Positions 17,168 through 21,978 of a stretch of 22,145 nt of DNA are shown piece by piece. The position numbers and the translations under genes are program-made. The notes below the pieces were generated by a model. That model saw only the letters and a program-made list of their open reading frames with translations. It searched no databases and was not told where the DNA came from. Origin of the DNA: a virus; IMG/VR virus record IMGVR_UViG_3300032287_000061, positions 1-22,145 of that record; one strand, 5' to 3'. Each line of letters begins with the position of its first letter. Positions within the stretch are counted from its first letter, which is position 1.

Positions 17168-17455
17168 TTAGTAGGTGAAGAAACCTGAGATTGCGCCAAG
17201 GTAACCACCATTTGCAGTAGAGCGGCGGAACATCTCGGTGTAATCCATCGCGCCCACCCAACGTCCCCATGCTGGGATGAAGAACACAACATAGCGAGGT
17301 GCGCGACCTTCGCTGTCAAAATACTTGCCAGCGGCTTCAGCGGCTTTGGCAGTTGCTTTCTCTGCGGCTTCTTGAGTCGCGTAGTTCTTGCAAGGTTGCT
17401 TGTTGGTAGAACGGTACTCTTCGATGCGTGCTGTCAGTGTTTCGATAATGTTCAT
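17168..17455 (-). CDS. Hypothetical early protein, 95 aa
   Basis: A helical Ala/Lys-rich N-terminal half (about residues 22 to 45) precedes a conserved-looking aromatic part (RYVVFFIPAWGRWVGAMDYT, then GGYLGAISGFFTY). I know similar small proteins from phages but no function. The strongly aromatic C-terminus ends in Tyr. The ATG is preceded by the leader AACGAAAGCGAACC with no Shine-Dalgarno sequence, and about 50 bases further upstream by a sigma-70-like promoter, so it is probably the first gene of its transcript. Confidence 0.8.
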   Translation of the reverse strand: MNIIETLTARIEEYRSTNKQPCKNYATQEAAEKATAKAAEAAGKYFDSEGRAPRYVVFFIPAWGRWVGAMDYTEMFRRSTANGGYLGAISGFFTY

Positions 17456-17476
17456 GGTTCGCTTTCGTTTGGTTAC

Positions 17477-17498
17477 CCGACTGCATTATTGCTGTCAG
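17477..17498 (-). promoter_or_regulatory. Leader hairpin of the 95-residue gene
   Basis: Minus strand CTGAC, A, GCA, loop ATAA, TGC, A, GTCGG: a 5-bp and a 3-bp helix separated by an A-A mismatch, with one G-U pair. It lies between the promoter and the octamer AAAGCGAA. The hairpin at 21418 has the same plan with different bases. Confidence 0.6.
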
Positions 17499-17505
17499 TG
17501 GTGTA

Positions 17506-17536
17506 ATTCTAGCATAAACAAAGTAGGGGTTGGCAA
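17506..17536 (-). promoter_or_regulatory. Sigma-70-like extended -10 promoter (module A)
   Basis: Minus strand TTGCCA at 17536 to 17531, a 19-base spacer ending in TGC, then TAGAAT at 17511 to 17506. TGC before TAGAAT is an extended -10 element, which offsets the long spacer. It sits about 50 bases before the start of the 95-residue gene and is nearly identical to module B in TTTGTTTATGCTA. The -35 lies within the palindrome GGGGTTG-N-CAACCCC (17526 to 17540), a possible operator. A TAGG...CCTA element lies at 17560 to 17573. Confidence 0.6.
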
Positions 17537-17565
17537 CCCCCTTTTGAAAATATTTTTATTAGGAC

Positions 17566-18381
17566 TTACCCTAGTGCCGCCTCCAACACTTTAGGGCGCT
17601 GGATAACGGTCTGCTTGATGCCGTTATAGACGGTGTGTTCTTTGATGCTGGCTTTGATGGTGGTGGTGTCGCCCTTGCCACCGATGTCAGAGCGACCTTT
17701 GTAGGTGATGGCGTTGCCCTGCTCGTCACGGGCGATGGTGATGTAGTTGTCACCGTAGAACTCGGACTTCAGCACCACGATACGCTCGACGGTGATGGTT
17801 AGGGTGACCTTGTCGCCCACGTTGCCAATGTGCTGGCTGTTGGCGCGTGCGGCCTCAATGCGGTCAATCACTGCAAAGCAGGACTCAGTCGCCTCGACTT
17901 GGCGGGCAGACAGGTTGCCCCAGTGGCTCAGGTTGCTCACCATATCGCGCAGGAACTCATTGTTGCCCTCGTAGGCCATTAGACGGGCCACTAAGGCGTT
18001 GTTGGCATCACGCCATGCCTGAGTAGCCTCTTGGCGCTCTACGGCCCTTTGGGCGCGTTCTGCGGCGAGTTGTGCCTTGCGGGACTCGCGGCGCTTTTGT
18101 GCGCCAGCTTGGCGGCGTGCACGGGCGTTATCAGCGCGAACCTTCTCGAAGCCCTCAATACCCCAGCCAGTCTTGGCAACGCAATCGCAACCCACTTTGA
18201 ACTGGCGTGCGCCAGCAATGGAACCCTTAATCCAAAACTCCCAGCGAATGCCTGTGCCGCAGTAATCGCATACACCGCCAGCCTTGGTCGTGCCGTCGCC
18301 GTTCTCCCAGACGTTTTCGGTAACGTGAGTGCAAGAGAAGGGAGCCTTGCCAAGGTTTGCTTTTTCAAATGGGTGTGTCAT
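17566..18381 (-). CDS. Zinc-finger protein with possible OB fold, 271 aa
   Basis: Residues about 14 to 70 form a zinc-ribbon-like domain with C38 and C41 (VCDYCG) and C65 and C67 (VGCDCV), with an aromatic RWEFWIKGS between. Residues about 80 to 125 are a very basic, Ala/Arg-rich coiled-coil stretch. About 125 to 190 is helical. About 195 to 265 is beta-rich (GDKVTLTITVERIVVLKSEF, then NYITIARDEQGNAITYKG) and could be an OB-like nucleic-acid-binding fold. I have seen this architecture in phage hypotheticals, but no function is known; RNA or DNA binding is inferred. The start at 18381 follows the leader GAAAGCGAAACACC and a strong promoter. It is probably the only gene on that transcript before module A. 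Confidence 0.8.
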   Translation of the reverse strand: MTHPFEKANLGKAPFSCTHVTENVWENGDGTTKAGGVCDYCGTGIRWEFWIKGSIAGARQFKVGCDCVAKTGWGIEGFEKVRADNARARRQAGAQKRRESRKAQLAAERAQRAVERQEATQAWRDANNALVARLMAYEGNNEFLRDMVSNLSHWGNLSARQVEATESCFAVIDRIEAARANSQHIGNVGDKVTLTITVERIVVLKSEFYGDNYITIARDEQGNAITYKGRSDIGGKGDTTTIKASIKEHTVYNGIKQTVIQRPKVLEAALG

Positions 18382-18406
18382 GGTGTTTCGCTTTCTTTTC
18401 GCTGTC

Positions 18407-18419
18407 CTGCACATCGCAG
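18407..18419 (-). promoter_or_regulatory. Leader hairpin of the 271-residue gene
   Basis: Minus strand CTGC, loop GATGT, GCAG: a short hairpin in the same place relative to the promoter and octamer as those at 17477 and 21418, but with a shorter stem. Confidence 0.4.
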
Positions 18420-18426
18420 TGGTTTA

Positions 18427-18457
18427 ATTGTAGCATAAACAAATTAAACACCGTCAA
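18427..18457 (-). promoter_or_regulatory. Sigma-70-like extended -10 promoter (module B)
   Basis: Minus strand TTGACG at 18457 to 18452, a 19-base A/T-rich spacer ending in TGC, then TACAAT at 18432 to 18427. Five of six bases match the consensus in each box, plus the extended -10 TGC. It lies about 46 bases before the 271-residue gene and shares TTTGTTTATGCTA and the following AATTAAACCACTG-like sequence with module A. A TAGG...CCTA element lies at 18468 to 18482. Confidence 0.7.
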
Positions 18458-18546
18458 GAACTTTTTGTAGGTGCTTTCCCTAATGCTTTCCGAGCGGCTA
18501 TTTCACGCTGGAGGATATGCCAGAAGGGGGACTTGATTGGGTTCAG
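18454..18546 (-). CDS. Possible short ORF with CTG start, 30 aa
   Basis: After the glycosyltransferase stop, one minus-strand frame stays open for 30 codons and reads like protein (NPIKSPFWHILQREIAARKA, ending GKAPTKSS). No ATG, GTG or TTG precedes it in frame; a CTG overlapping the previous stop is preceded by GGAG. It could be a small coupled gene, the tail of a frame-shifted longer product, or chance. Part of it overlaps the conserved promoter module, which argues against a purely coding origin. Confidence 0.2.
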   Translation of the reverse strand: MNPIKSPFWHILQREIAARKALGKAPTKSS

Positions 18547-19409
18547 ACCTTCTCCACCAGCGCCATGCCGTAGTTGTTGATGCCCTTTGGAATGACCACG
18601 CCAGCCTTGCGCACCAAGGCGTTGTGCTTAAACACGGTGTAGTCAACGTGGTGATGCCACCGACCGAACCGCCAGACCACCTCAGCCACGTCAGGGTGCA
18701 GGCGCTCTAGCATCTGCGACTTAGGCAAGGTTCCCTCCTTGGCGTAGAACTCTTCAGTGTTGCCACCTGCCATCGTCTGGGTGGTGGCCTTCTCTTGCAG
18801 GAATGCGTTGAACTGCACGGTGCATAGGCCAGCCTTGAGCGCCCGCAGGGACAGGTCGGTGTCCTCGTTGTAGCGCCCGCGCCAGCGCATGGGCAGGTCG
18901 TTCTTGATAAGCAGGCAAGAGTAGATGCGGGTGTTCATCACGAAGGCAGGCAGAGGCTCCTTGGCCTTAGCAAAGAAGTCGTAGTTGAAGCCAGCAATGG
19001 CGACGTTCTCGTAGCGGTCAACGAAGTCCTCTGCGGCCCTGAATATCGTGCCAGAGGTGACCTTGACCATGAGGTTGCGGTTGAGCCTGTTGAAGGAGGC
19101 GATGTTGTCGTCCATGACCCAGTGGCGCTCGGCCTCAAGGGTGAGGCTGTGGAGCCAGCAGAAGTTCCGAGCCGCCCCGGGGCCTTTTCCACGCGCCTCG
19201 CCCACGTCATCGCAGGTGTCGTAGTCACGCAAGAACTCAGGCGGCAACACCAGCACCTTCGCTGGGTCAATCACACTAGCGTACTCGTCTCGCTCGTGAG
19301 CCTCCACAACGATGTAGTAGGGGACATTGATGCGGTCAAGCGCCTTGCTTGTCAGGCGCGTCTTCCACCGCCCTTTGGAAACAATGTAGACAGGGTACTT
19401 AGGGTTCAT
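18543..19409 (-). CDS. TAGT-type glycosyltransferase, 288 aa
   Basis: Resembles the TET-associated glycosyltransferases (GT-A fold) of phages, which add sugars to modified bases in phage DNA. Visible motifs: PKYPVYIVSKGRWKTRLTSK at the N-terminus, IPYYIVVEAHE-type strand 2 (residues 29 to 39), the DDN metal-binding motif in HWVMDDNIASFNR (97 to 109), and the catalytic NEDTDLSLRALKAG (181 to 194). QTMAGGNTEEFY (211 to 222) is also typical. The length fits. The start is ATG 19409, preceded by GAGG at 8 bases; a TTG one codon earlier is less likely. It overlaps the 80-residue gene by 11 bases. No TET/JBP dioxygenase or methylase is in this window, so the substrate is unknown. Confidence 0.8.
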   Translation of the reverse strand: MNPKYPVYIVSKGRWKTRLTSKALDRINVPYYIVVEAHERDEYASVIDPAKVLVLPPEFLRDYDTCDDVGEARGKGPGAARNFCWLHSLTLEAERHWVMDDNIASFNRLNRNLMVKVTSGTIFRAAEDFVDRYENVAIAGFNYDFFAKAKEPLPAFVMNTRIYSCLLIKNDLPMRWRGRYNEDTDLSLRALKAGLCTVQFNAFLQEKATTQTMAGGNTEEFYAKEGTLPKSQMLERLHPDVAEVVWRFGRWHHHVDYTVFKHNALVRKAGVVIPKGINNYGMALVEKV

Positions 19410-19641
19410 CAACGTACCTCAAATGCGATGCCCTGCGGAACTCAGCAAACGGGAACCACAGCGCCTTTTGCCTTGGCGTGATGACCTGCTCGACCAGCTT
19501 GGCAAACTCCTGCACATCCTCTTCACTTCTGAACCGAAGGTTGAGGACGCGAAAGGGCGTAAGGTCTTCCTGAAAGAACTCAGGCATACCCTGCCACTCC
19601 TTTCGCCAATCGAACTCCTCATAACCAAACAGGTCTGTCAT
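19399..19641 (-). CDS. Small conserved protein paired with glycosyltransferase, 80 aa
   Basis: MTDLFGYEEFDWRKEWQGMP, then EFFQEDLTPFRVLNLRFRSE and a C-terminus with KALWFPFAEFRRASHLRYVD. The W-x-GMPEF-x-QE and WFP motifs belong to a family I have seen in phages near base-modification genes. It has an alpha/beta look and no catalytic motif I can name. It overlaps the glycosyltransferase by 11 bases and the upstream gene by 4 (ATGA), so the stoichiometry is probably coupled. A partner role in DNA modification is inferred from position only. Confidence 0.75.
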   Translation of the reverse strand: MTDLFGYEEFDWRKEWQGMPEFFQEDLTPFRVLNLRFRSEEDVQEFAKLVEQVITPRQKALWFPFAEFRRASHLRYVDEP

Positions 19642-19952
19642 TCAGGCTTGCCTTCCATCTTGAGGTGGGCCAGCAACTCCTTCACCGCAAACACGTCATG
19701 CGGGTACAAGTCGATGTATTGCTCAATCTCATTCAGGACGTAGCCATAGCCCGCGTCAAAGCCCTTGATGTAGTCAGACATCACCGCCTCGCTTGGAGGG
19801 CGCTTACAGCCCTTGTGGGCCTCCAAAAAGGTGTCGAACGTACCCAAGATAGCGTCGATGGGCGCAGGCATCTTGACGGCCTGCGTAAAGCCACAATGCT
19901 GGCATTCCATGCGCTGAGTGGTGCTGTTGTGAATGATGTGGTCGGTGTTCAT
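19638..19952 (-). CDS. Hypothetical protein with CxxC motif, 104 aa
   Basis: The N-terminus carries MECQHCGFTQAVKMP (C17, C20), one half of a zinc-finger-like motif; possible further ligands are H45 and C49 in EAHKGC. The remainder is helical (SDYIKGFDAGYGYVLNEIEQ, HDVFAVKELLAHLKMEGKPE). Zinc binding is plausible from C17, C20, H45 and C49. Function unknown. Both ends overlap neighbours by 4 bases (ATGA), which fixes the start and places it in a polycistronic message. Confidence 0.8.
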   Translation of the reverse strand: MNTDHIIHNSTTQRMECQHCGFTQAVKMPAPIDAILGTFDTFLEAHKGCKRPPSEAVMSDYIKGFDAGYGYVLNEIEQYIDLYPHDVFAVKELLAHLKMEGKPE

Positions 19953-20134
19953 GCTGTTTCCCTTGCTTCTTTGCGACCACGCTCTACAAAGTAGCGTGCG
20001 TCTGATTGCTCGTCAATGTGTTCATCCTGAAGCATCTTGCGGATGCCCTCTGCTACGGCCCGCGCCTTGTCGGCGCTGTTGGCCTTCTCGTAACGATAGC
20101 CTGCGTTGATGTACTCTGCTTGTGCGTGCTTCAT
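19949..20134 (-). CDS. Small helical phage protein, 61 aa
   Basis: MKHAQAEYINAGYRYEKANS, then ADKARAVAEGIRKMLQDEHI and a charged end with DARYFVERGRKEARETA. Mostly helical, no Cys, no membrane segment. The AEY-x-x-AGYRYE and AR-x-FxxRGRKEA pattern is one I have seen among small phage genes. Function unknown. Four-base ATGA overlaps with both neighbours support the boundaries. Confidence 0.75.
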   Translation of the reverse strand: MKHAQAEYINAGYRYEKANSADKARAVAEGIRKMLQDEHIDEQSDARYFVERGRKEARETA

Positions 20135-20541
20135 GCGGCCTCCTCAACCTGTGGTAAACGCAATTCCCAGCATCGACCGTACCCAACTATTTTGCGTGAG
20201 GCCACATTGCGAATATCGTCAATGAGCGTCTTTGCGCCAGAACTTTCCCAACCGTCGTACTCGCAAGCCTGATAAGCAAAACAATCGCACCCAGAAATAA
20301 TGTCGATGGCCTCAATATGCGACACCGATACGGTCTTAGGCAAGAAGTCCTCTGGCTTGTCACCGTAGCGGGCGTGCATACTGGAGTTGTTGGCGTCTCG
20401 CAAGACCGCGCCCACGCGCCAATAGTCTTCGGACTGGGTCAAGTCAAATCGAACATCACCCACCCGCACGATGGGGTTGTGCTTACGCGCCCATGACAGA
20501 AGGATGTTGATGTGGTCATCAGAAACGTGAAATGCTGACAT
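20131..20541 (-). CDS. Conserved phage protein of the SAFxVS type, 136 aa
   Basis: Begins MSAFHVSDDHINILLSWARK. Further motifs are VGAVLRDANNSSMHARYGD (about 49 to 67) and CDCFAYQACEYDGWESSGAK (about 91 to 110, three Cys), then a C-terminal helix IDDIRNVASRKIVGYGRCWE. It matches a widespread phage and mobile-element hypothetical family that starts SAFxVSxxHI and has CDCxxYQxCExxxWE. Function unknown. The start at 20541 lies 2 bases past the upstream stop; the 38-residue in-frame extension lies within the previous gene and is rejected. Confidence 0.85.
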   Translation of the reverse strand: MSAFHVSDDHINILLSWARKHNPIVRVGDVRFDLTQSEDYWRVGAVLRDANNSSMHARYGDKPEDFLPKTVSVSHIEAIDIISGCDCFAYQACEYDGWESSGAKTLIDDIRNVASRKIVGYGRCWELRLPQVEEAA

Positions 20542-20543
20542 GA

Positions 20544-20729
20544 TTAAGCCCCCTGTGGCGCGTTGATGTAACCCTGCTCGATGAGCGAGGCGGCGGTGCG
20601 ACCAAAGAAGCCTTGCAGTTGCCATGCGAGGCCCGTGTCGACCAAGTGTTGCCACGCCTCCAATACTTGCTCTTCGCTCTCGGCCTCAATGAAGCCCTCT
20701 GCTAAACCTGTTGCTGTGTAGTTGTCCAT
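20544..20729 (-). CDS. Small conserved phage protein, 61 aa
   Basis: MDNYTATGLAEGFIEAESEE, then VLEAWQHLVDTGLAWQLQGF and FGRTAASLIEQGYINAPQGA. The pattern EGF, W-x-x-L-x-x-TGLxWxLQG, FGRTAxxLI-x-x-G-x-I is conserved in many phage small proteins; the function is unknown. Predicted to be helical. Upstream lies a GGGGG/CCCCC hairpin and the leader ATAACCGAAACGAAAGCGAA, with no ordinary Shine-Dalgarno sequence. Confidence 0.8.
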   Translation of the reverse strand: MDNYTATGLAEGFIEAESEEQVLEAWQHLVDTGLAWQLQGFFGRTAASLIEQGYINAPQGA

Positions 20730-20754
20730 GATGATTCGCTTTCGTTTCGGTTAT

Positions 20755-20768
20755 GGGGGCAAGCCCCC
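20755..20768 (-). other. GGGGG-CTTG-CCCCC hairpin
   Basis: A perfect 5-bp G/C stem with a CUUG loop on the minus strand, 6 bases after the stop of the 104-residue gene and 25 bases before the next start. It is followed by ATAACC, exactly as the hairpin at 17146 is followed by GATAACC. No U tract. Confidence 0.55.
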
Positions 20769-20774
20769 GTTTAG

Positions 20775-21089
20775 TTAATCTGCGCGTGAACCCATGTAAC
20801 ACTGGATGCCATGCTTGTTCATCACCTCAGAGAACGCCTGAGCGCCAGCTTCTTTGATGTCCATCGACTGGGTGTGGTTGCCTGCTGGGTTCCAAATAGA
20901 CCAGCCCTTTTTCCAATGCTTAGAGCCAACGCCATTCTTTTTGCACCAAGTCACAAACGGTGTGCGTGCGCTTGGGAAGTCAACCCAAGCAAAACCGCAA
21001 TACATTGGTTCGCCGTACTTGGCTTGATATTCAGCTTCAGCCGCCTTAGCGGCGGTCATTGCTTCTTCGTAGATTGATGTGAAGTTCAT
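20775..21089 (-). CDS. Conserved phage hypothetical, 104 aa
   Basis: An N-terminal helix (MNFTSIYEEAMTAAKAAEAE) is followed by MYCGFAWVDFPSARTPFVTW, KKNGVGSKHWKKGWSIWNP, TQSMDIKEAGAQAFSEVMNK and a final MGSRAD. The YCGFAWV motif, the K-x-W-x-x-GW-x-IW-x-P segment and the SRAD end are shared by a phage hypothetical family of unknown function. The start is supported by AGGGGG about 6 bases upstream. Thirteen bases separate it from the preceding gene, so it is in the transcript of module C. Confidence 0.8.
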   Translation of the reverse strand: MNFTSIYEEAMTAAKAAEAEYQAKYGEPMYCGFAWVDFPSARTPFVTWCKKNGVGSKHWKKGWSIWNPAGNHTQSMDIKEAGAQAFSEVMNKHGIQCYMGSRAD

Positions 21090-21102
21090 GTCCGCCCCCT
21101 GA

Positions 21103-21396
21103 TTAACGTGAAGTTACTTTGACGCTGAACACAGCGGTGGTTTTTGTGTGACGAGCAATTTGCTCGGCAGTTGCACCCAACTCAGCCAACAAGGCTTTGT
21201 TGTCAACAACAGAGCGATTGCTCTCAATGTATGTTGCTTTGAAGAGGTTGCCCTCAACAACTTTGTCGCCACCAGCAGAGGCGGAATCTTTGATGCCGTC
21301 TTTGATAGAGTCGGCTTGCTTAGTTAACTCAGCAATCTGAGCCAAGAGGTTACCCAGTAAGTCGACTTGGGTGAGTTGGATGTCGTTTGTTTTCAT
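21103..21396 (-). CDS. Hypothetical early protein, 97 aa
   Basis: MKTNDIQLTQVDLLGNLLAQ, then IAELTKQADSIKDGIKDSAS form a helical N-terminal half. A beta-like core (KVVEGNLFKATYIESNRSVV) and a helical AELGATAEQIARHTK with a beta end (TAVFSVKVTSR) follow. This layout is seen in small phage proteins of unknown role. The start at 21396 follows the leader AACGAAAGCGAACC, identical in its last 15 bases to that of the 95-residue gene. A 12-residue in-frame extension would run through the leader and is rejected. First gene after promoter module C. Confidence 0.8.
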   Translation of the reverse strand: MKTNDIQLTQVDLLGNLLAQIAELTKQADSIKDGIKDSASAGGDKVVEGNLFKATYIESNRSVVDNKALLAELGATAEQIARHTKTTAVFSVKVTSR

Positions 21397-21417
21397 GGTT
21401 CGCTTTCGTTTAGTTGC

Positions 21418-21443
21418 CTGACTCAGCACCATTGCTTTGTCAG
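21418..21443 (-). promoter_or_regulatory. Leader hairpin of the 97-residue gene
   Basis: Minus strand CTGAC, AA, AGCA, loop ATGG, TGCT, GA, GTCAG: two helices of 5 and 4 bp around a 2-by-2 internal loop, placed between the putative promoter and AAAGCGAA. Same plan as the hairpin at 17477. Confidence 0.6.
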
Positions 21444-21445
21444 TG

Positions 21446-21480
21446 CCTCTAGTTTAAGCCCAAATTAAACGCCAACACAA
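21446..21480 (-). promoter_or_regulatory. Putative promoter (module C, degenerate)
   Basis: This aligns with modules A and B through GTTTAATTTG and CTAGA, then CACTGAC. The boxes are weaker: TTGTGT with an 18-base spacer to TAAACT, or TTGGCG with an 18-base spacer to TAGAGG. A TAAGG...CCTAA element lies at 21501 to 21515. Placement between a nuclease stop and a leader with hairpin and octamer supports a promoter role. Confidence 0.4.
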
Positions 21481-21538
21481 CATCTTTTTAAAAATATTTC
21501 TAAGGAAAACCCTAATATGTTGCAAAAAAGCAACCGCT

Positions 21539-21835
21539 TTACGCGCAAACCGTAACCCCAAGCAGTTCCAGCGTCTCTTTCAAGAGGTCAGCCTCGTCAT
21601 ATCCGTAGTGTTTCTCGAACCCCTTGGTTCCCAAGCCATGCAAGCCCGTGGAACCGCGATGATGCTCAGGACAGAGCGGTATGACGGTCATGTGGCTGGA
21701 ACGCCCCCAACCCCCCGCCAAACGCCTTGGATGGTGTAGTTCTGCTGGCGTGCCTTGGTATCCCATCCGCCTGCATACTGCGCACCCCAATTCCGCTACG
21801 GCGCTCATATGCTTCTTTTCTTTCAACGTGGTCAT
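21539..21835 (-). CDS. Ref-like HNH nuclease, 98 aa
   Basis: Resembles the phage P1 Ref (RecA-dependent nuclease) family: AELGCAVCRRMGYQGTPAEL with C18 and C21, HHPRRLAGGWGRSSH with the catalytic-type HH at 34 to 35 and H48, IPLCPEHHRGSTGLHGLG with C55, H58, H59 and H66, then KGFEKHYGYDEADLLKETL. Metal-binding and HNH-type residues are all present. P1 Ref cuts DNA at RecA-formed loops and stimulates recombination; that role is inferred here. It lacks the long N-terminal tail of P1 Ref, as many phage versions do. The start at 21835 overlaps the zinc-ribbon stop by 4 bases (ATGA). Confidence 0.85.
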   Translation of the reverse strand: MTTLKEKKHMSAVAELGCAVCRRMGYQGTPAELHHPRRLAGGWGRSSHMTVIPLCPEHHRGSTGLHGLGTKGFEKHYGYDEADLLKETLELLGVTVCA

Positions 21836-21978
21836 TGCTTGCCCTTGGTAAAGCCCGAACGGTTTTTGAGGTCGTGGCAGGTCTGGCATCGCCACTGCGG
21901 TGCGCCCCTGCTATTCCTGCCCTTGACCTCTGCTGGTCTCAGGCGACACACCTGACAGGTAGGTTGCTTGTCAGTCAT
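21832..21978 (-). CDS. Small zinc-ribbon protein, 48 aa
   Basis: Two Cys pairs are visible: CQVC (8 to 11) and CQTC (31 to 34), with a basic linker between, so a single zinc ribbon or knuckle is expected. The rest is basic (RSGFTKGKQ end). Nucleic-acid binding is inferred. The start at 21978 was chosen because it overlaps the upstream stop by 8 bases and has an AGAAAGAAG-type purine stretch before it; ATGs further upstream lie within the preceding gene. It runs directly into the Ref-like nuclease, and the two may act together. Confidence 0.7.
   Translation of the reverse strand: MTDKQPTCQVCRLRPAEVKGRNSRGAPQWRCQTCHDLKNRSGFTKGKQ

Follow-up and report, generated by a model that had tools for sequence, protein, structure and literature searches.

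A repeated promoter-leader module of freshwater phages and its probable Cro/YdaS-type regulator

Small Cro-family helix-turn-helix (HTH) proteins are known from the lambdoid immunity region, with Cro on OR/OL at PR/PL, and from the prophages Rac and CP-933P as YdaS, which is regarded as a Cro equivalent despite its 'toxin' name (PMC5917428, PMC9986795). In lambdoid phages, Cro recognition helices correlate with OR half-sites (Hall et al. 2005, as cited in PMC4488713). Dispersed repressor sites that diverge with their repressor are found as stoperators in Cluster A mycobacteriophages, where they are asymmetric and halt elongation (PMC9283540, PMC6550527), and the start-associated sequences (SAS) and extended start-associated sequences (ESAS) of Cluster K combine a 13-bp motif at gene starts, GGGATAGGAGCCC, with a 17-bp inverted repeat (PMC3203893). 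Here we compare with these systems a promoter-leader module present in three copies on the minus strand of the IMG/VR virus record IMGVR_UViG_3300032287_000061, of which positions 1 to 22,145 (the window) were analyzed.

The module is probably a strong sigma-70 early promoter combined with an operator for a phage Cro/YdaS repressor and a standard 5' leader. As in the lambdoid phages, a small Cro-family HTH protein would act on palindromes the size of a lambda operator that lie over sigma-70 promoters, its own and others used early; unlike in the lambdoid switch, the candidate sites are spread over several separate small operons, and neither an S24-type CI nor a tyrosine integrase was found in 18 genomes. 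The covariation of factor and site at recognition-helix positions is of the kind credited to Hall et al. in the citing paper, except that it concerns the YdaS branch, hundreds of uncultured phages and several target promoters per phage. The sites are dispersed and diverge with the protein as in Cluster A, but they are palindromic and restricted to promoters. As in Cluster K, a short motif at the ribosome-binding position and an upstream inverted repeat precede many unrelated genes, but the module sequences differ, the inverted repeat overlaps a recognizable -10, and the start motif is either of the AAAGCGAA or of the AGGAG type. Each ingredient is known; their combination in a Cro regulon that is dispersed, apparently lacks CI and shows natural covariation of factor and site looks like a new variation.

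Module copies in the window and in related phages

The window, 22,145 bases long, is part of the genome of an uncultured freshwater tailed phage. Its minus strand carries the terminase, portal and capsid genes and then, from 16.6 to 22.1 kb, a series of small genes. Its closest annotated phage is MW202545 (57-kb circular genome, Manatee Spring; 89% identity in the major capsid protein, 60% in the portal, 51% in the terminase), then Caulobacter phage RW and its relatives. The nearest relatives with longer contigs, L182 and L181, are ~88-90% identical in DNA.

A profile (R1) built from an alignment of 38 module copies from the window and related contigs, three of them from the window, gave exactly three matches on the two strands of the window, with E-values of 9e-15, 4e-14 and 2e-10 that are too favorable because R1 was trained partly on these copies. 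The lack of further matches in the window and the copies found in contigs outside the training set are independent of this overlap. Hence, the original prediction of three minus-strand copies near 17.5, 18.4 and 21.4 kb (here C, B and A) was correct, and a search for the full pattern added no other. The strict TAGGG element and the palindrome described below each occur three times in the whole window, always within a module copy. The octamer AAAGCGAA, which had been counted as part of the module, is indeed in all three copies but is not confined to them: it occurs eight times in the window against 1.1 expected (0 of 100 shuffles reached 8). Four of the eight stand directly 5' of an ATG, and no promoter copy accompanies the one at 20735-20742.

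The module was present in 74 of the 80 sources scanned. Across 707 kb, made up of the window and 79 related contigs, R1 matched 204 sites at E ≤ 0.01; 203 share the orientation of the small genes. Long relatives carry two to five copies each, all in one region, and the complete public phage MW202545 carries two; the group with the module consists only of uncultured freshwater phages and MW202545. The module was not found in Caulobacter phage GB2A or phage DSL-LC04 (stretches of ~50 kb each, related in the capsid-side genes). A Psychrosphaera genome with one strict TAGGG-TTTAATTTG-CACTG match was rejected as a carrier, as the module model finds nothing there.

The proteins encoded downstream fall into 31 clusters without detectable relation, and the prediction that the copies precede unrelated genes thus extends to some 30 downstream families. 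In the slot directly behind gene B (17566-18381), the module occurs in 39 contigs and is followed by one of 16 unrelated families, which indicates that promoter positions were kept while genes were exchanged. The module had been proposed to be duplicated and kept; it has been kept, while duplication explains the copies only in part, those in the main slots being mostly old and inherited in place. In the relatives L010, L028, L038 and L054, the gene directly behind a module copy (MEKANFSQLLND...) is an ArdC-like anti-restriction gene. A Tad2-like anti-Thoeris domain was matched among 55 proteins from MW202545 and a second genome, G004.

The palindrome and the Cro-family protein

The core of the module is an imperfect 17-bp palindrome (6-5-6) that overlaps the -10 and is best read as an operator. 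What had been listed as TTTAATTTG with a -10 is at its core this single palindrome; likewise, one of TTTAATTTG and TTTGTTTATGCTA had been assigned to each copy, which is true of copy A (TTTAATTTG) and copy C (TTTGTTTATGCTA), while copy B contains both in one string. The palindrome exists in lineage versions (TCTAAC/GTTAGA, TTTAAC/GTTAAA or GTTAAG, TGTAAT/GTTACA, TGAAAT/GTTACA and TTTAAT/GTTA(A,C,T)A), and all copies of one phage tend toward the same version. The base at left position 2 is the complement of its partner in 52 copies out of 110 (29.4 expected), and the likeness of promoter cores within a phage exceeds that in every one of 500 shuffles, an excess not seen for the hairpin loop. This pattern suggests a trans-acting, phage-specific reader. 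MW202545 also has a third perfect TCTAAC-N5-GTTAGA (L136 5656-5672), beyond its two module copies, before an annotated 2OG-Fe(II) oxygenase gene.

The prediction that a single phage or host factor governs the copies now has a likely candidate in a phage protein. Some 5 kb upstream of their modules, a position that would fall shortly outside the window, relatives encode a YdaS/Cro-family protein of 65-70 amino acids; it was first recognized in Pfam scans of relatives (PF15943). A YdaS-like HTH protein was present in all five phage groups searched in longer genome stretches, at 14 loci initially and at 240 after three wider scans. Its profile matched YdaS (Cro) of prophage CP-933P (PDB 8co2/8c7k) at 4e-13, and an AlphaFold model (mean predicted local distance difference test (pLDDT) score 93), which superposes on 8co2 with a template modeling (TM) score of 0.85, places the recognition helix at residues 26-33. 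In L182 and L181, cro lies ~5 kb upstream of the position of copy A. Since L181 carries a SKTWFSL-type cro preceded by TTTAATTTGGTGTTGCA, a SKTWxS-type cro is predicted for the phage of the window.

Protein and palindrome could be compared at 144 loci having both. Of 63 TKQWMA recognition helices, 61 go with TGAAAT or a near variant; the other pairings are SLTWxS with TTTAAC, TxTWLG with TCTAAC, SRTWxA with TGTAAT and, mainly, SKTWxS with TTTAAT. When one vote was counted per protein cluster, residue 30 and operator position 2 had the highest normalized mutual information of all variable residues (0.85, the next being 0.63), serine pairing with T, alanine with G and glycine with C. A tree that leaves out the helix puts three changes at residue 30, and in independent pairs the operator changes the same way, never the opposite way.

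The same palindromes were found upstream of cro itself. With matrices derived from module palindromes only, and with the top 5% of windows counted as high-scoring, 226 of 236 loci had a class-matching palindrome in the 130 nt preceding cro, and in 5/5 classes the matrix of the own class outscored the other four. Of 150 matrices per class in which half-site positions had been permuted, only 0 to 3 scored as high as the real one, so these sites are not accounted for by A/T richness. Taken together, the sequences indicate that the Cro-family protein probably binds all module copies, and that its DNA-reading surface would have changed in step with the sites.

Upstream of cro (for example L149 9770-10000), a divergent gene also has a GAAAGCGAA leader and extra half-sites, and the region resembles the divergent control region of lambda, with no cI being obvious. 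In MW202545 (L133 1887-2936), cro adjoins a ParB-like nuclease gene and a restriction-modification-like gene, according to the record annotation. Neither Peptidase_S24 (CI/LexA-type repressors) nor a tyrosine integrase (PF00589; serine integrases were not searched) was found in the 18 genomes (35-58 kb, MW202545 included), in scans where control genomes scored. No CI-type HTH family was seen among 112 scanned proteins of three phages; a CI without S24 is possible elsewhere. This gene content would fit virulent phages with a lone Cro.

Anatomy of the promoter and leader

Each module appears to comprise a sigma-70-type promoter and its UP-like A/T tract, followed by an RNA hairpin at the 5' end of the leader and by a start-site motif. 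The features of the three copies in the window, all on the minus strand, are as follows.

21500-21515 (-): copy A, TAGGG...CCT element (TTAGGGTTTTCCTTAG), from the sequence and its enrichment at modules
21484-21500 (-): copy A, UP-like A/T tract (GAAATATTTTTAAAAAG)
21475-21480 (-): copy A, weak -35, TTGTGT, 18-nt spacer, from the sequence
21453-21469 (-): copy A, putative operator palindrome TTTAAT-TTGGG-CTTAAA, overlapping the -10
21451-21456 (-): copy A, -10, TAAACT
21418-21445 (-): copy A, 5'-terminal leader hairpin CACTGAC...GTCAG (leader -11.8 kcal/mol)
21399-21406 (-): copy A, AAAGCGAA at the ribosome-binding position
21103-21396 (-): gene behind copy A, 97 amino acids, phrog_6244, unknown function
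18468-18483 (-): copy B, TAGGG...CCTA element
18452-18457 (-): copy B, -35, TTGACG, 19-nt spacer, extended -10 TGC
18423-18448 (-): copy B, operator-like half-sites TTTAAT...TTTATG-CTACA-ATTAAA around the -10
18427-18432 (-): copy B, -10, TACAAT
18407-18421 (-): copy B, leader hairpin CACTGCGATGTGCAG
18387-18394 (-): copy B, AAAGCGAA
17566-18381 (-): gene behind copy B, 271 amino acids, phrog_2319, Cys-rich N-terminus, unknown function
17559-17574 (-): copy C, TAGGG...CCTA element, overlapping the stop codon of gene B
17541-17557 (-): copy C, UP-like A/T tract
17526-17541 (-): copy C, GC hairpin GGGGGTTGCCAACCCC, its loop holding the -35 TTGCCA (17531-17536)
17502-17518 (-): copy C, degenerate putative operator TTTATG-CTAGA-ATTACA, centered on the -10
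17506-17511 (-): copy C, -10, TAGAAT
17477-17500 (-): copy C, leader hairpin CACTGAC...GTCGG
17458-17465 (-): copy C, AAAGCGAA
17168-17455 (-): gene behind copy C, 95 amino acids, phrog_3633, unknown function

Across all copies, the TA and the final T of the -10 are almost invariant, and many are extended (TGn). The -35 is variable in quality and spacing (from 13-15 to 19 nt by copy, set against the 16-18 nt of a standard sigma-70 promoter), and the boxes in the window are weak or badly spaced (13-19 nt). With up to three mismatches, the A/T tract, at about -40 to -60, fits the UP consensus in 63 of 126 modules, against 5% of shuffled regions. CACTG stands at the expected start site and opens the terminal stem-loop. 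The ribosome-binding position is occupied by AAAGCGAA or, in other lineages, by AGGAG types; because of this replacement, AAAGCGAA is taken as a translation start element and not as a part of the promoter. A GC hairpin (GGGGGTTGACAGCCCCC type) with the -35 in its loop was seen at 17526-17541 (-) and in relatives such as L028, L035 and L049; lying just upstream of the start site, it is a possible terminator-promoter overlap.

Proposed regulation and its alternatives

On infection, the short blocks of small genes would each be transcribed by host polymerase; the UP-like tract would assist it, as might a factor bound to the TAGGG element. Each RNA would begin at or beside the A of CACTG, which would place the hairpin at its 5' end, and translation would begin at the AAAGCGAA/AGGAG position. 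The Cro-like protein encoded ~5 kb upstream would then accumulate, and its dimer, on the 17-bp palindrome over the -10 of every copy and of its own gene, would shut down the early set together.

A module made simply of constitutive sigma-70 early promoters, in which the TTTAATTTG spacer is favored because it bends DNA or contacts polymerase and lineages differ by drift, would account for the -10, the extended -10 and the UP-like tract, and repeated early promoters are common among phages. It is unlikely, given that the distance from the spacer half-site to the -10 is fixed while the -35 moves, that both the downstream half and the Cro recognition helix vary along with this half-site, and that the same palindrome stands before cro in a different promoter context. 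We consider it equally improbable that another factor, an activator or a host regulator, reads the palindrome and that the Cro-like protein correlates with it by shared ancestry. The count of three residue 30 changes on the tree leaves room for this, as does the weaker correlation of other YdaS residues; the best-correlated residue nevertheless sits on the recognition helix, the site is found at cro in every class, and a host factor would not vary by phage lineage. The leader hairpin, whose function we infer, stands just downstream of every promoter, is paired in 94% of leaders, recurrently has a GCAA loop (89 of 126) and shows compensated stem changes (CTGC/GCAG, CTGAC/GTCAG, CTGTC/GACAG). 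These features could suit an antitermination (nut- or put-like) site, the main role of the module then being terminator read-through in the early region. We hold this to be rather doubtful: neither a boxA nor an N-like protein was established, an mRNA-protecting stem-loop at the 5' end accounts for the same data, and antitermination would supplement the operator, not supplant it.

The TAGGG element leaves more room. TAGGG-N4-6-CCTA was found in 85 of 146 modules (2.2 expected), its left half is strictly conserved, and it starts mostly 57-58 bp upstream of the -10 (minor groups at ~47 and 66-70 bp), so its center would be near -61. It could thus bind a second activator at this position, encoded by phage or host, or else form a weak hairpin at the 3' end of the operon upstream, a proposal that falls somewhat short of an even chance. 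Many active-looking copies lack the element, its internal spacing varies by one base, and the dyad was not enriched in 143 sampled Gammaproteobacteria genomes, a sample that may lack the host. An RNA hairpin seemed the less likely form, as the sequence is conserved without covariation, and helical phasing is not provable because one distance class dominates.

Several points weigh against a Cro/YdaS repressor acting on the module. The window ends before cro, which is deduced from relatives ~88-90% identical in DNA, and while the palindrome of copy A is good (TTTAA...TTAAA), those of copies B and C are degenerate and shifted ~6 bp toward the start site. Phylogeny was only partly controlled, the three changes of residue 30 being too few for a formal sign test; a few SKTWMSL loci have TGTAAT operators instead of TTTAAT, and the rule linking residue 26 to position 6 is weaker. 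Transcription, its timing, binding and the sign of regulation at the module are all read from sequence, early expression from gene position and host-type promoters, and repression solely from the overlap with the -10.

More broadly, it is an even question whether, in a large group of virulent CI-less freshwater phages, a lone Cro times a dispersed early regulon, the cassette staying in place as a docking site for unrelated early genes that come and go, and the specificity of Cro shifting in concert with that of all its operators. Such phages would offer a natural experiment, with a repressor and several operators changing jointly in five sequence classes that span hundreds of genomes. An abundant uncultured group whose early genes are nearly all unknown would also gain a regulator and a regulon, and the module would serve as a sequence tag for early genes, those of relatives including the ArdC-type gene.

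Two neighboring genes of the window were also recognized. The gene at 21539-21859 (-) belongs to PF16786, a family of RecA-dependent (Ref-like) nucleases, and that at 18543-19409 (-) encodes a TET-associated glycosyltransferase (PF20691, E 1e-42), a sign that the phage DNA may be hypermodified.

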